The notes beneath the pieces were generated by a model. The model made no database searches. It saw only the letters and a program-made list of their open reading frames with translations, and was not told the origin of the DNA. Both the position numbers and the translations under genes were made by a program. Source: Gammaproteobacteria bacterium (GTDB taxonomy: Bacteria; Pseudomonadota; Gammaproteobacteria; Porifericomitales; Porifericomitaceae). From it: a DNA stretch of 40,735 bases. This document shows, piece by piece, positions 1 to 21,598 of the stretch. How positions within the stretch are numbered: the stretch's first letter is position 1; the number at the start of each line of letters is the position of its first letter. The stretch is taken from the NCBI GenBank assembly GCA_014238615.1, contig JABAAT010000007.1, positions 1 to 40,735 on the forward strand, read 5' to 3'.

Positions 1-363
1 CAAGCACATGCAGCGGGACGCGCGCTTACTCCAGGACCGGGGCCGCGCCGAATCGGGACCGCGTTCCAACGTCTCTCACGATCCGCACGAGTTCCCGCAC
101 CCGCCGCCGCCGCGGCACCTGGCCGATTGCCGTGCGGAGGTCGCGCGCGCTTCCCGGCACAAGCGCCGCGACCACTTGCGCCTTCCGCATCGATCGCTCC
201 CCTTCGATCCGGGCCCTGAATGCCGCAAGCACATGCAGCGGGACGCGCGCTTACTCCAGGACCGGGGCCGCGCCGAATCGGGACCGCGTTCCAACGTCTC
301 TCACGATCCGCACGAGTTCCCGCACCCGCCGCAGGCGCGGCACCTGGCCGATTGCCGTGCGGG
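1..363. repeat. Tandem direct repeat, 225 bp period, at the window edge
   Basis: Bases 1-137 recur at 226-362 with only two mismatches (at 108 and 110 of the first copy). The remaining roughly 88 bases of the unit, 138-225, appear only once here, so one full unit plus a truncated second copy is visible. The array may extend left beyond the window. The period is a multiple of three, so reading frames pass through it in register. It lies directly upstream of speA and ends about 40 bp before its proposed start. Confidence 0.9.
26..190 (-). CDS. Possible small basic protein encoded in the tandem repeat (54 aa)
   Basis: On the minus strand an ATG at 190 follows a GGGGAG Shine-Dalgarno-like sequence at a spacing of 6 and opens a 54-codon arginine-rich frame ending in TAA at 26-28. 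The C-terminal half (from AIGQVP to GAAPVLE) is repeated in the second copy, which ends at 251 but has lost this start. I recognise no family. The alternatives are a decayed gene end copied by the tandem duplication, or a chance ORF in GC-rich DNA. Confidence 0.25.
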   Translation of the reverse strand: MRKAQVVAALVPGSARDLRTAIGQVPRRRRVRELVRIVRDVGTRSRFGAAPVLE

Positions 364-402
364 GTTGCGCGCCGCACATCCCCATCCCCCCGCAGGCGCC
401 GC

Positions 403-2334
403 GTGAACGCCACGCGGCCCCTGCCTGACACCGCCCGGGCGCGGCGGCAGGAAGCACAAAACGCCGCGCTTTATCACCTGGCGGGCTGGGCTGACGGCTA
501 CTTCCAGGTCGGCCGCGGCGGCCGCCTGCTGGCTCACCCCTCCTGCCGCCCGGAGGCCGTCGTCGACCTCTATGAACTGGCGTTGAAACTCGAAGACATC
601 GGCTACCCGCCTCCCGTCCTGGTGCGTTTCACCAACATCCTGGAACACCGCCTGCGGCGCCTGGACGCGGCCTTCGAAGCGGCCCGCAAGCGCCATGCTT
701 ACACGGGAAGCTACCACGCGGTGTATCCGTTGAAGGTGAATCAGCAACATTCGGTGGTTGCCGGCATCCTGCGACATGGGAGCGCGCACACCGGCCTGGA
801 GGCGGGCAGCAAGGCGGAGCTGATGCAACTCCTGGCCCTGGCGGTGCCCGGACAGCCGCTCATCTGCAACGGCTACAAGGATCAGGACTACCTGCGCCTG
901 GTCTGCGCCGGGCTGAGCATGGGCCTGGAACTCTACCTGGTGGCCGACAAGCTCTCCGAACTGCAGCCCACGCTGGAGGCGGCCGCGGAAGCTGGAGTGC
1001 ACCCGTCCCTTGGCCTGCGCGTACGCCTGGCCTCCATCGCCTCCGGCAACTGGCAGAACACCGGCGGCGGCAAATCCAAGTTCGGGCTGACTCCCGGGCA
1101 GGTGCTGGAGGCCCTGCGTCAGCTGCGCGCCGCCGGGCGGCTGCAAGACCTGCGCCTGCTGCACTTCCACATCGGCTCCCAGGTGACCGACGTGCGCTAC
1201 TTTCAGCGCGCCCTGCGCGAAGGCGCCTGTTACTACGCCGAACTGCGGGCCGCCGGCGCGCCCATCGACACCGTGGATGTGGGTGGCGGCCTGGGCATCG
1301 ACTACGAAGGCAATCGCTCCACCGACCCCTGCTCCATGAACTACTCCATGGAGGAATACGCCGAGGTGGTCATCCAGGCGCTGGCCCAGGGCTGCGCGCA
1401 ACACCAACTACCGCAACCCCGGGTCATCACCGAATGCGGACGCGCCATGACCGCCCACCACGCCATGCTGATCACCAATGTCATTAACACCGAGCGCGCC
1501 CCGGAGCATGTGCCGGAGCGCGCGCCCCCGGCGGAAGGCGCCCCACACGCGCAGGCGCTGCTGGAACTGGAACGGCTGCGCGCCGGGCTCAGTCGGGAAA
1601 ACGCTGCCGCCACCTGCTCCGAGGCCGAGTCCTTCTGCGACGAGGCGCAGGAGCTATTCAACCACGGCCTGCTCGGGTTGAACGGCCTGGCCCGGGCGGC
1701 GGCGCTGTACCACGAACTCTGCCGCGCCGCGTTGCCCCTGTTGCCGGAAGACGCTAAAGCGGCGCCGGACCTGCGCCGCCGCCTGGCCGACAAGTACCTA
1801 TGTAACTTCTCCGTGTTCCAGACCATCCCGGACGCCTGGGCGCTCCGCCAATCCTTCCCGGTAGTGCCGCTGCACCGGCTGGACGAAGCGCCCGAACGCC
1901 GCGCCGTGCTACACGACCTCACCTGCGATTCGGACGGCCGCCTGGACCAATATGTCACTGGCGCCGGCGTCGCCGCGCAGTTGCCCCTACACGCACCGCG
2001 CGCCGGCGAAGCCTACCTGCTCGGCATCTTCCTGCTGGGCGCCTACCAGGAAATCCTGGGCGACCAGCACAACCTGTTCGGCGACACCGCCTCGGTCAAC
2101 GTGGAACTGCAATCCAACGGCTCTTACCGGATCAACGAACTGCGCGACGGCGACCTGGCGGCCGACCTGCTGCGCTATATCGGCCTGCCCGCGGAGACCA
2201 TCCTGGAGCGTTGCGCGTCCAAGCTGGACGCGGCCGGCGCGGCCACCGCCGCCAAGACACGCTGCATGGAACTGCTGCGGCGCAACCTGCGCGCCCAGAC
2301 CTATCTTGGGACGCGGCGGCGGGTATCCCCATGA
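403..2334 (+). CDS. speA: Biosynthetic arginine decarboxylase SpeA
   Basis: PLP-dependent decarboxylation of L-arginine to agmatine, the first step of the agmatine route to putrescine. The 643 aa product matches the usual 630-660 aa. It has the fold-III PLP barrel with the Schiff-base lysine in AVYPLKVNQ (about residue 111), the HFHIGSQ and DVGGGLGIDY motifs, the ECGRA motif, and the DLTCDSDG segment carrying the conserved cysteine near the C-terminus. The GTG at 403 is chosen because homology begins shortly after it (GWADGYF) and an AGG lies 6 nt upstream. The frame is open further upstream, but that sequence is the 225 bp repeat and looks unrelated. The stop overlaps the next gene's start (ATGA), so the two are probably translated together. 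Confidence 0.95.
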   Translation: MNATRPLPDTARARRQEAQNAALYHLAGWADGYFQVGRGGRLLAHPSCRPEAVVDLYELALKLEDIGYPPPVLVRFTNILEHRLRRLDAAFEAARKRHAYTGSYHAVYPLKVNQQHSVVAGILRHGSAHTGLEAGSKAELMQLLALAVPGQPLICNGYKDQDYLRLVCAGLSMGLELYLVADKLSELQPTLEAAAEAGVHPSLGLRVRLASIASGNWQNTGGGKSKFGLTPGQVLEALRQLRAAGRLQDLRLLHFHIGSQVTDVRYFQRALREGACYYAELRAAGAPIDTVDVGGGLGIDYEGNRSTDPCSMNYSMEEYAEVVIQALAQGCAQHQLPQPRVITECGRAMTAHHAMLITNVINTERAPEHVPERAPPAEGAPHAQALLELERLRAGLSRENAAATCSEAESFCDEAQELFNHGLLGLNGLARAAALYHELCRAALPLLPEDAKAAPDLRRRLADKYLCNFSVFQTIPDAWALRQSFPVVPLHRLDEAPERRAVLHDLTCDSDGRLDQYVTGAGVAAQLPLHAPRAGEAYLLGIFLLGAYQEILGDQHNLFGDTASVNVELQSNGSYRINELRDGDLAADLLRYIGLPAETILERCASKLDAAGAATAAKTRCMELLRRNLRAQTYLGTRRRVSP

Positions 2335-6960: not shown

Positions 6961-8970
6961 ATGCGCCTTGAACGCCTTCTCTCCGGCGGCAGCGTGCTCC
7001 TCGCGGTGTTGCTGTTCGGCTCCCTGAACCTCATCGGCAACACCCTGGTCACCTCCTGGCGCCTGGACCTTACCTCCAACCGCCTGTTCACCTTGTCCGA
7101 GGGGACGCGCGACCTGCTGCAGGCGATGCGCGAGCGCGACCCCATCGAACTGCGCTTCTACGTGTCGCGCGGCCAGTTGACCAACTTCCCCCGCCTGAAC
7201 AGCTACGCGACACGCGTACAGGACATGCTGCGCGAATACGCCAGCCGCTCCGGCGGCACACTGAGGCTCAGCGTGATCGAGCCCGAGCCTTTCTCCGAGG
7301 AGGAAGACGAAGCCGTGCAGGACGGTATGAACGGCTTCCAGGTGGACAGCGGCGGCAGCCTGGCCTACCTGGGGCTGGTCGGGGTGAATGAAACCGATGA
7401 CCGGGAGGTGCTGCCCTTCCTCTCCCCCGCGCGGGAGGATTCCCTGGAATACGATGTCAGTAAGCTGATCCACAAGCTCTCCAACCCCAGGCGCCTCACG
7501 CTGGGTGTGCTCACCGGACTGCCGATCTTTCCCGGCCTCGGGAACCCCGGCCTCGGGCCCCAGGGCGCCGCGGAAAAACCCTGGACCATCATCAGTCAGC
7601 TGCGCGAATTCATGGAGGTACGGGAGCTGCAGGCCAATCTGCACCACGTTGACCCTGACGACATCGACGTGCTCATGGTGGCACACCCCAAGGGGTTTTC
7701 CGAGCAGCTCGTCTATGCCATCGACCAGTACCTGCTGAACGGCGGCAAACTGCTGCTGCTGCTGGATCCCCTGGCCGAGGCGTCCGCCGCCCAACAGGGC
7801 GCCGCCCAGAGCGTACTCCCCGACTTCGGCTCCAATCTCCCGCGCCTGCTGGAAACCTGGGGGCTGGAAATGCCGGACGACAAGGTGGTGGGCGATCTCA
7901 AGTATGCCATGCGGGTACAGGTCTCCAGCACCCGCAGCCAAAGCGAAAGCCTCTATCCCCCCTGGCTGCGCCTGGACACGGGGCAGCAGGAAGCACAGGA
8001 CGCGGCGGAGGATGCGGAAGACTTCATCCTGAACAGCGGGGACTTCGCTCTTACCGGCATCAAGCTTCTGCAGATGGGCACGGTGGGTGCCCTGCTGCAG
8101 ACTGAGCCCGTGGACGGCCTGGAATTCATCCCCCTGGTGCAAAGCAGCATGCAGTCCGGCCTGCTGGAACGGGATTTGATCCTCCTGCAGCGCGATCCGG
8201 TGTTTCTGCTGCGGAGCCTGCAGAACGCCGACGACCGCTACGTGCTCGCGGCCCGCCTGCGGGGGAACGCGCCCAGCGCCTTCCCTGACGGCCCTCCGCC
8301 CGTGGAACAGGCGGAGGGAGAAGAAGGGGAAGCAGCAGCGAGCGACACGCCCGCGGCGGACCCCGACGCCCACGTGTCCGAAGGCCCGGTACAGGCCGTC
8401 CTGATCGCCGACACCGACCTGCTGCGCGACCTCTTCTGGTACCGGGAGCAATCCCTGGGCACCCTGCGCTTCAACCAGGAAATCGCCGATAACGCCAACT
8501 TCCTGATCAAGGCCGTTGACCATCTCTCCGGCAGCAGCGAGCTGCTCAAGCTGAATCCCCGCCGGGTCTATCCGCGCAACTTTGACCGGGTGGAAGAAAT
8601 CCGCCGCACCGCGGAAAAGAAATACCGCGACGAGGAAGAGCGGCTGCAAAACGCTTTGCAGGAGACCGAACAAAAACTGCGCAACCTGCAGAGTCCGCAA
8701 GGTCCGGATGGCGGCGGCATTCTGAGTGCGGCGCAGGCCCGGGAAATTGAGCAGTTCAAGCGCGAGCAGCTCAAGACCCGCAAACAGCTGCGCGCGGTGC
8801 AACATGAATTGCAGAAAAACATCGAGCGGCTCGGCACCACCCTGAAATTCCTGAACATCGGCCTGTTCCCGGCACTGGTGCTGCTGCTGGCCCTGATCGC
8901 GGGCCACCTGCGCGCGCACCCGCGCCGCCGTACCGCGTCGCGCCGGTCGCGGGATGACGACTCCCCATGA
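6961..8970 (+). CDS. GldG-like ABC auxiliary protein (ABC_transp_aux family)
   Basis: A 669 aa protein with an N-terminal membrane segment (about residues 9-28), followed by SWRLDLTSNRLFTLSEGT, the usual opening of the GldG/ABC-auxiliary domain. A large periplasmic domain runs to about 540 and includes an acidic low-complexity stretch near 445-475. A coiled coil follows (about 545-620), then a C-terminal membrane helix (about 623-645) and a basic tail. It sits between the permease and DUF4340 genes, the normal order of this operon type. It is probably a periplasmic or membrane partner of the exporter, and the substrate is unknown. Confidence 0.9.
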   Translation: MRLERLLSGGSVLLAVLLFGSLNLIGNTLVTSWRLDLTSNRLFTLSEGTRDLLQAMRERDPIELRFYVSRGQLTNFPRLNSYATRVQDMLREYASRSGGTLRLSVIEPEPFSEEEDEAVQDGMNGFQVDSGGSLAYLGLVGVNETDDREVLPFLSPAREDSLEYDVSKLIHKLSNPRRLTLGVLTGLPIFPGLGNPGLGPQGAAEKPWTIISQLREFMEVRELQANLHHVDPDDIDVLMVAHPKGFSEQLVYAIDQYLLNGGKLLLLLDPLAEASAAQQGAAQSVLPDFGSNLPRLLETWGLEMPDDKVVGDLKYAMRVQVSSTRSQSESLYPPWLRLDTGQQEAQDAAEDAEDFILNSGDFALTGIKLLQMGTVGALLQTEPVDGLEFIPLVQSSMQSGLLERDLILLQRDPVFLLRSLQNADDRYVLAARLRGNAPSAFPDGPPPVEQAEGEEGEAAASDTPAADPDAHVSEGPVQAVLIADTDLLRDLFWYREQSLGTLRFNQEIADNANFLIKAVDHLSGSSELLKLNPRRVYPRNFDRVEEIRRTAEKKYRDEEERLQNALQETEQKLRNLQSPQGPDGGGILSAAQAREIEQFKREQLKTRKQLRAVQHELQKNIERLGTTLKFLNIGLFPALVLLLALIAGHLRAHPRRRTASRRSRDDDSP

Positions 8971-20419: not shown

Positions 20420-21336
20420 GCGACGCAACGAACGCCGGGCGCGGCCTGCGCATGGGGTTGCTGGGTGTCGGGATGATCGGCGGCTCGTTGGTCCACGCGC
20501 TGCGCCGCGCGGGAGCGTTATCCTCGGTCAGCGGCTGGGATCCGGATCCCGAGGTGCTGCACTATGCCATGGAGCATGGTCTGCTGGACCATGCCGCGGC
20601 AACGCCCGCGGCAGTGGCGCGGGAAGCCGACCTGGTGGTCCTGGCGGCGCCGCCGGCGGCCTGCGCCGAACTGTTCGAGACCCTGGCGCCGGTACTGCAC
20701 CCCGGACAGTTGCTCACCGACACCGTCAGCGTGAAACGCGCGCCGATCGCCGCGGCACGGGCTTCCCTGGGGGCGCTGTTACCCCGTTATGTGCCCGGCC
20801 ATCCGATAGCCGGCACGGAGCACAACGGCCCGGCGGCCGCCGACCCGGAACTCTTCAAAGGCTGCGCCACGGTACTGACCCCTCTGCCCGAGACCGATGC
20901 CGCGGCGCTCAAGGCCATCGCTGATTTATGGCGCCGCGCCGGGGCGCGCGTGCTGCACATGGAAGCCGCGCGGCACGATGCAATCTTCGCCGCCACCAGT
21001 CACCTGCCGCACTTCCTGGCCTACTCCCTGGTGGATTTTCTCTCCAGCCTGGAAGAGGAGGGGGAGATCTTCAGACACGCCGCCGGCGGCTTCGCCGACT
21101 TTACGCGCATCGCCTCCAGTTCCCCGCGCATGTGGCGCGAGGTGTGCGCTGGCAACCGCGACCTGCTGTTACCGCTGCTGCACCGCTTCGAGACCAGGCT
21201 GGGCGGCTTGCGCAAGCTGCTGGAAGAGCAGGACTGGGAGCATCTGGAGGAGCGCTTCCGACACGCCAAGCAGGAACGCGACGCTTACCTGGAAGACCCA
21301 GGAACGTGGCGCGACGGCTCCTCCGATGGAAACTGA
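20416..21336 (+). CDS. tyrA: Prephenate/arogenate dehydrogenase TyrA
   Basis: Oxidative decarboxylation of prephenate towards tyrosine. The 306 aa product has the nucleotide-binding GLLGVGMIGGSL (about residues 14-25), VSVKRAPI, and the active-site GHPIAGTEHNG (about residue 130). The helical C-terminal domain ends RDAYLEDPGTWRDGSSDGN. There is no ACT domain. The GTG at 20416 overlaps hisC (GTGA). Its last 84 codons are the source of the duplication that lies between it and aroA. The stop lies 11 nt inside the following chimeric frame (ATGGAAACTGA). In Pseudomonas the equivalent genes are fused into one TyrA-AroA protein. Confidence 0.95.
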   Translation: MSDATNAGRGLRMGLLGVGMIGGSLVHALRRAGALSSVSGWDPDPEVLHYAMEHGLLDHAAATPAAVAREADLVVLAAPPAACAELFETLAPVLHPGQLLTDTVSVKRAPIAAARASLGALLPRYVPGHPIAGTEHNGPAAADPELFKGCATVLTPLPETDAAALKAIADLWRRAGARVLHMEAARHDAIFAATSHLPHFLAYSLVDFLSSLEEEGEIFRHAAGGFADFTRIASSSPRMWREVCAGNRDLLLPLLHRFETRLGGLRKLLEEQDWEHLEERFRHAKQERDAYLEDPGTWRDGSSDGN

Positions 21337-21598
21337 GTATCAGGTCGGCGCCGGCGGCTGCGCCGACTTGACGCGCATCGTCTCCCGCTCCCCGCGCATG
21401 GGGCGCAAGGTGGGCGCCGGCCGCCGCTTCGAGACCAGGCCGGGCGGCTTGCGCAAGCTCATGGAAGAGCAGGACCGGGAGCGCCTGGAAGAGCGCTTCC
21501 GACACGCCGGGCGGGAACGCGACGCTTACCTGGAAGACCCAGGAACGTGGCGCGGCGGCTCCTCCGATGGAAACTGAGTATCGGGTCGGCGCCGGCGG
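21083..21598. repeat. Tandem duplication of the tyrA/aroA junction
   Basis: Copy 1 (21083-21350) carries the tyrA 3' end and the first codons of an AroA N-terminus. Copy 2 (21351-21591) repeats it with substitutions and an internal 27 bp deletion. Each boundary falls at the same CCGGCGG microhomology (21083, 21351, 21592). The 70 bp around the stop/start overlap are nearly identical between copies (period 241 bp), while the 5' part is more diverged. Confidence 0.92.
21326..21577 (+). CDS. Chimeric ORF: AroA N-terminus joined to TyrA C-terminus (83 aa)
   Basis: The ATG at 21326 overlaps the tyrA stop by 11 nt. The first 11 residues (METEYQVGAGG) match the AroA start, and the rest aligns with the TyrA C-terminus from ADLTR to the end SSDGN, lacking nine residues (NRDLLLPLL). 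Its own stop overlaps the aroA ATG by the same 11 nt, so it links tyrA to aroA translationally. Many hydrophobic residues of the TyrA domain have become Arg or Gly, so a folded TyrA activity is unlikely, but the frame and overlaps are intact. It may act only as a translational relay, or be an expressed peptide of unknown role. Confidence 0.7.
   Translation: METEYQVGAGGCADLTRIVSRSPRMGRKVGAGRRFETRPGGLRKLMEEQDRERLEERFRHAGRERDAYLEDPGTWRGGSSDGN

Follow-up and report, generated by a model that had tools for sequence, protein, structure and literature searches.

A 225-base tandem repeat upstream of speA at a contig end of a gammaproteobacterial genome

The window (the whole stretch of 40,735 bases analysed here) opens within a repeat with a period of 225 bases that lies directly before speA. 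This repeat is probably a local, minisatellite-like tandem duplication of intergenic DNA. The genome to which it belongs is small, and its contigs break at a large number of tandem arrays that are unrelated to one another, which is more notable than the repeat beside speA itself.

The repeat at the left end of the window

Self-comparison of the window showed that bases 226–362 are a copy of bases 1–137, with mismatches at positions 108 and 110 only (135 of the 137 comparable bases identical, 98.5%). The longest exact block within 1–600 was 107 bases, compared with a maximum of 12 bases in 100 dinucleotide shuffles, and the identity at a lag of 225 stopped sharply after 137/362. The G+C content of the array was 0.72, versus 0.65 for the window. 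Head-to-tail copies of a single unit, the mark of a tandem-repeat locus, were therefore seen, and 1.6 copies are visible. Tandem Repeats Finder run with a minimum score of 40 did not report the 225-base pair, presumably because just these 1.6 copies are present. Since the right boundary of the repeat sits at 362, positions 138–362 were taken as the natural unit (Table 1).

Base 1 of the window is also base 1 of contig C63 (123,519 bases), one of the 75 contigs of this genome (G000), and the left side of the repeat is therefore cut by the assembly. The first-pass annotation had described a recurrence of bases 1–137 with two mismatches and a window opening inside a unit, and both observations were borne out. 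Its statement that the rightmost copy lacks its 5' part hinges on the start chosen for the unit; with 138–362 as the unit, the right copy is complete, and it is the left copy that the contig end truncates.

Table 1. Features of the speA-proximal end of the window (positions in the window)
Feature	Position	Strand	Basis
Complete 225-base unit, naturally phased to finish where the repeat stops on the right	138..362	.	Sharp stop of lag-225 identity
Right-hand portion of the adjacent copy, truncated at the contig start	1..137	.	135/137 bases equal to 226–362
Part of the unit comparable with 1–137	226..362	.	Self-comparison
54-codon frame from its ATG through the last codon, not considered a gene	29..190	-	No family, weak codon score, chance length
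132-codon open frame across both copies, judged not a gene	8..406	+	Open in 1148/2000 shuffled arrays
speA, arginine decarboxylase, with its probable start	403..2334	+	Three Pfam domains above cut-off; alignment with two relatives

The repeat sits exactly at a contig end, as might be expected if the cell held a single copy that the assembly had doubled. This explanation is highly improbable, however, because two bases distinguish the copies and the stretch that links them, 138–225, has no second copy. In addition, the exact block of 107 bases falls short of the 141 bases by which ten pairs of contig termini overlap (see below), so that an assembler with k near 141, as these overlaps suggest, could have kept the copies apart, and a fully assembled tandem duplication is present inside the same window.

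Coding capacity of the unit and the junction with speA

The frame 220–2334 carries three arginine decarboxylase-type Pfam domains. Because its alignment with two family relatives (54–55% identity) starts only near residues 61–67, the start of speA was placed at about the GTG at 403, which is the probable start on these alignments and leaves 40 bases between it and the end of the repeat. No sigma-70-type promoter and no intrinsic terminator were found. An RNA element was rejected, since Rfam gave no family match in 1–900 at E ≤ 1 and folding was near the level of shuffled sequences: two short pieces folded somewhat better (138–225 on the plus strand, z −1.87; 340–440, z −1.60), and 1–402 as a whole folded no better (z 1.34).

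One of three possibilities raised by the first-pass annotation was a duplicated small gene on the minus strand, in which the unit would carry a translated protein of 54 residues with a GGGGAG ribosome-binding site. The ATG frame of 54 codons is indeed there, a GGGGAG motif precedes its ATG, and across the codon positions it shows a gene-like base composition (0.81, 0.56, 0.83). However, its codon score was 0.08 bits per codon, below both the 5th percentile of 237 gene windows (0.19, with a median of 0.49; the same windows trained the table) and the 95th percentile of 420 wrong-frame windows (0.22). The best of the six frames of the unit 138–362 scored 0.13, whereas held-out windows never fell under 0.29 in speA (23 windows) or under 0.27 in aroA (16 windows); the lowest of the 12 windows of the tyrA frame, whose 5' end may be over-extended, scored −0.08. 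The peptide had no family match in Pfam or PHROGs and was conserved in none of the genomes searched, the best foreign matches being at E 0.13 in three other genomes of the family and at E 0.009, in two genomes, among 273 other genomes of the class. Moreover, 348 of 500 shuffles of 1–450 contained an ATG frame as long or longer. The peptide is thus without a credible relative, the codon signal is weak and the length of the frame is that expected by chance, so that a duplicated small gene is very unlikely. Neither sign of a small protein gene, a conserved peptide or known family on the one hand and a codon usage typical of this genome on the other, was found in the unit, and we infer that it encodes no protein. 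These results caution against annotating a 54-residue gene in the repeat.

Two plus-strand frames are open through 1–402, and the TGA of one of them, the 132-codon frame, overlaps the inferred start of speA as GTGA (403–406). In shuffled arrays of the same layout, the GTGA-ending frame was open in the number given in Table 1, and two or more frames were open in 1238 of 2000. The GTGA-ending frame gave weak matches (E 0.0014–0.008) in 6 of 142 other genomes and one Pfam match under the cut-off. Scored as an array at a contig terminus, the speA repeat had open frames and a low codon score (0.04).

A second tandem duplication, with a period of 241 bases, was found fully assembled at 21183–21598, where it lies across the tyrA/aroA junction (gene families by profile search). 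Its copies agree at 163 of 175 bases, the aroA-side copy being a tyrA 3' end that has diverged. From an ATG overlapping the tyrA stop, an 83-codon frame (21326–21577) extends to a TGA overlapping the aroA start. It resembles the speA repeat in its similar period, its two copies and its position directly before a gene, whereas the copied piece is here plainly a gene end and the duplication is older. Duplications of about this size evidently arise and age in this genome.

The tyrA/aroA parallel lends some weight to the second possibility in the first-pass annotation, a decaying gene end, in which case the speA repeat would be the duplicated 3' end of a neighbouring gene. A plus-strand frame does terminate on speA as GTGA, and the left neighbour lies unseen beyond the contig start. 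Nevertheless, the highest codon score among the six frames of 138–362 was 0.13, whereas the duplicated tyrA piece still scored 0.37; the GTGA frame is open in more than half of the shuffles, and its matches are the weak ones described above. Furthermore, in a genome of the sister genus (G003) the gene to the left of speA stops about 230 bases short of it. A decaying gene end is therefore unlikely. The third possibility, a non-coding repeat, fits best among the three. The unit may nevertheless have a coding origin: 225 is divisible by three, two plus frames are open, and periods divisible by three occur in 17 of the 28 terminal arrays described below, some of which are plainly coding.

Distribution of the unit and of tandem arrays at contig termini

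No second long copy was found on the other contigs of the genome, and the unit was not found in 55 relatives at E 0.001; a long copy was likewise absent from 273 other genomes of the class, and searches of phage and plasmid collections were without a match at E 0.01. At E ≤ 0.01 the unit had matches in 30 of 274 genomes, its own included; among those listed, the foreign matches were short (≤50 bases) and were read as an effect of composition. Weak matches within the genome itself, of 48 bases at 79% on C67, close to the start of a presumed ribosomal protein L25 gene, and of 27 bases on C45, were dropped, foreign matches of the same kind being short and attributed to composition. A dispersed or mobile repeat was rejected because the genome has no other long copy and the phage and plasmid collections were empty at this threshold. 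The lack of a further long copy in all of these sets indicates that the repeat is local and not dispersed. A literature search gave no title concerned with this repeat locus, although such arrays may still have been reported.

A different repeat was found before speA in the sister genus. In G003, a 15-base repeat of 3.7 copies (locus L016, 3740–3795) ends 29 bases before the probable ATG of speA, and in a second genome, G002 (L017), 30 bases of this repeat are missing between flanks nearly identical to those of G003. This difference shows that the length of a repeat before speA can change and is silent on function. The 15-base repeat is, like the 225-base repeat, tandem and upstream of speA; unlike it, it has another unit length and sequence, and the 225-base unit had no match in these two genomes. 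The gene to the left of speA in G003, and by near-identical DNA in G002, is presumably thioredoxin-like; its best match in the genome of the window is a relative at 28% identity inside C47, which does not place the left flank of the repeat. Other arrays were observed near speA in the sister genus: units of about 100 bases at L016 350–1358 and L017 5408–6352, which we take to be ankyrin-type repeat proteins. L017 also has, at 7322–7418, a 19-base unit that includes GTCATTCCGGC, in five copies that are 97% alike.

The copy number of the 225-base repeat may vary and may alter the leader of speA, with a possible effect on the gene. A stronger proposal is that the array is a length-variable leader, in which a unit whose length is a multiple of three would keep the plus frame open through any number of copies, GTGA would deliver ribosomes to speA, and polyamine synthesis would be adjusted by how many units are present; the 15-base repeat of the sister genus, with its difference of two units, would then be a convergent case. 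We regard this proposal, including the convergent case, as most improbable.

The contig termini of the genome were read for tandem arrays at 137 sites (75 starts and 62 ends; loci L102–L236), of which 11 masked ones were dropped. A tandem array touched 28 of the 126 readable termini, with shortest lags of 27–315 bases. In other genomes, 1 of 38 termini touched a repeat (Fisher p 0.003 against G000, where the 28 are not all independent because ten pairs share an array); these 38 termini came from 30 records near speA genes, built by various assemblers, and are not a random sample. When any repeat of 40 bases was counted, the numbers were 36 of 126 in G000 and 4 of 38 in the control. Only 1 of 310 (overlapping) interior positions of G000 touched a tandem array. 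An array touched 1 of 19 readable contig starts in two relatives and none of six further termini of the family, which are too few to judge whether the excess is shared.

Ten arrays were seen from both sides, with facing pairs of termini carrying the same array: C70/C75 (266), the starts of C18/C39 (309–315), the starts of C52/C68 (60), C5/C56 and six other pairs. At its far end, C63 itself runs into a different array, with a period of 253. Exact overlaps between pairs of termini measured 141 bases in ten pairs and 131 in two, and single pairs overlapped by 140, 111, 88, 81, 75 and 56 bases. These overlaps suggest an assembler based on k-mers, with k close to 141.

Both repeat proteins and non-coding arrays are represented among the 28 terminal arrays: eight have a gene-like open frame by codon score and seven have no open frame. 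Periods that are multiples of three were found in 17 of the 28 (p 0.004, with pairs counted twice). Loci listed with terminal arrays are L106, L157, L189, L221, L129, L220, L152, L206 and L208. L106 and L157 look non-coding, with lags of 31/62 bases, and some of the terminal arrays give repeat proteins with lysine-rich (KKAGKKKVTRK), KDTAEAAP, TKEPKA or cysteine/glycine-rich units.

Because ten arrays of the same assembly are seen from both sides, it is plausible, by analogy, that the speA repeat is likewise part of a longer array extending to the left. Tandem repeats generally originate by slippage or unequal recombination, and the copies before speA would have arisen in one of these ways. 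Further near-identical copies to the left would then have halted a short-read assembler, and the repeat would account for the stop of the contig at base 1. Long reads would make whole arrays visible and would allow cells to be compared for the length of the repeats that precede speA and other genes.

Comparison with known repeat classes

The MIRU elements of mycobacteria are one class with which the repeat can be compared. According to a published account (PMC12548453), the MIRU unit contains an ORF coupled to the next gene with a spacing of −4 nt, and MIRUs are interspersed and appear mobile. A possible likeness lies in the plus-strand frame whose TGA would overlap the inferred start of speA within GTGA, and the difference in the open frame being expected by chance and in the unit having no second genomic site, whereas MIRU-like repeats have copies at several places in the genome.

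Bacterial minisatellites, or VNTR loci, are the closer counterpart. They share with the speA repeat near-identical head-to-tail units that are intergenic and private to one locus; the unit here is long for the class (225 bases), and the contig begins inside the array. The repeat before speA thus looks like an ordinary further case of a known repeat type.
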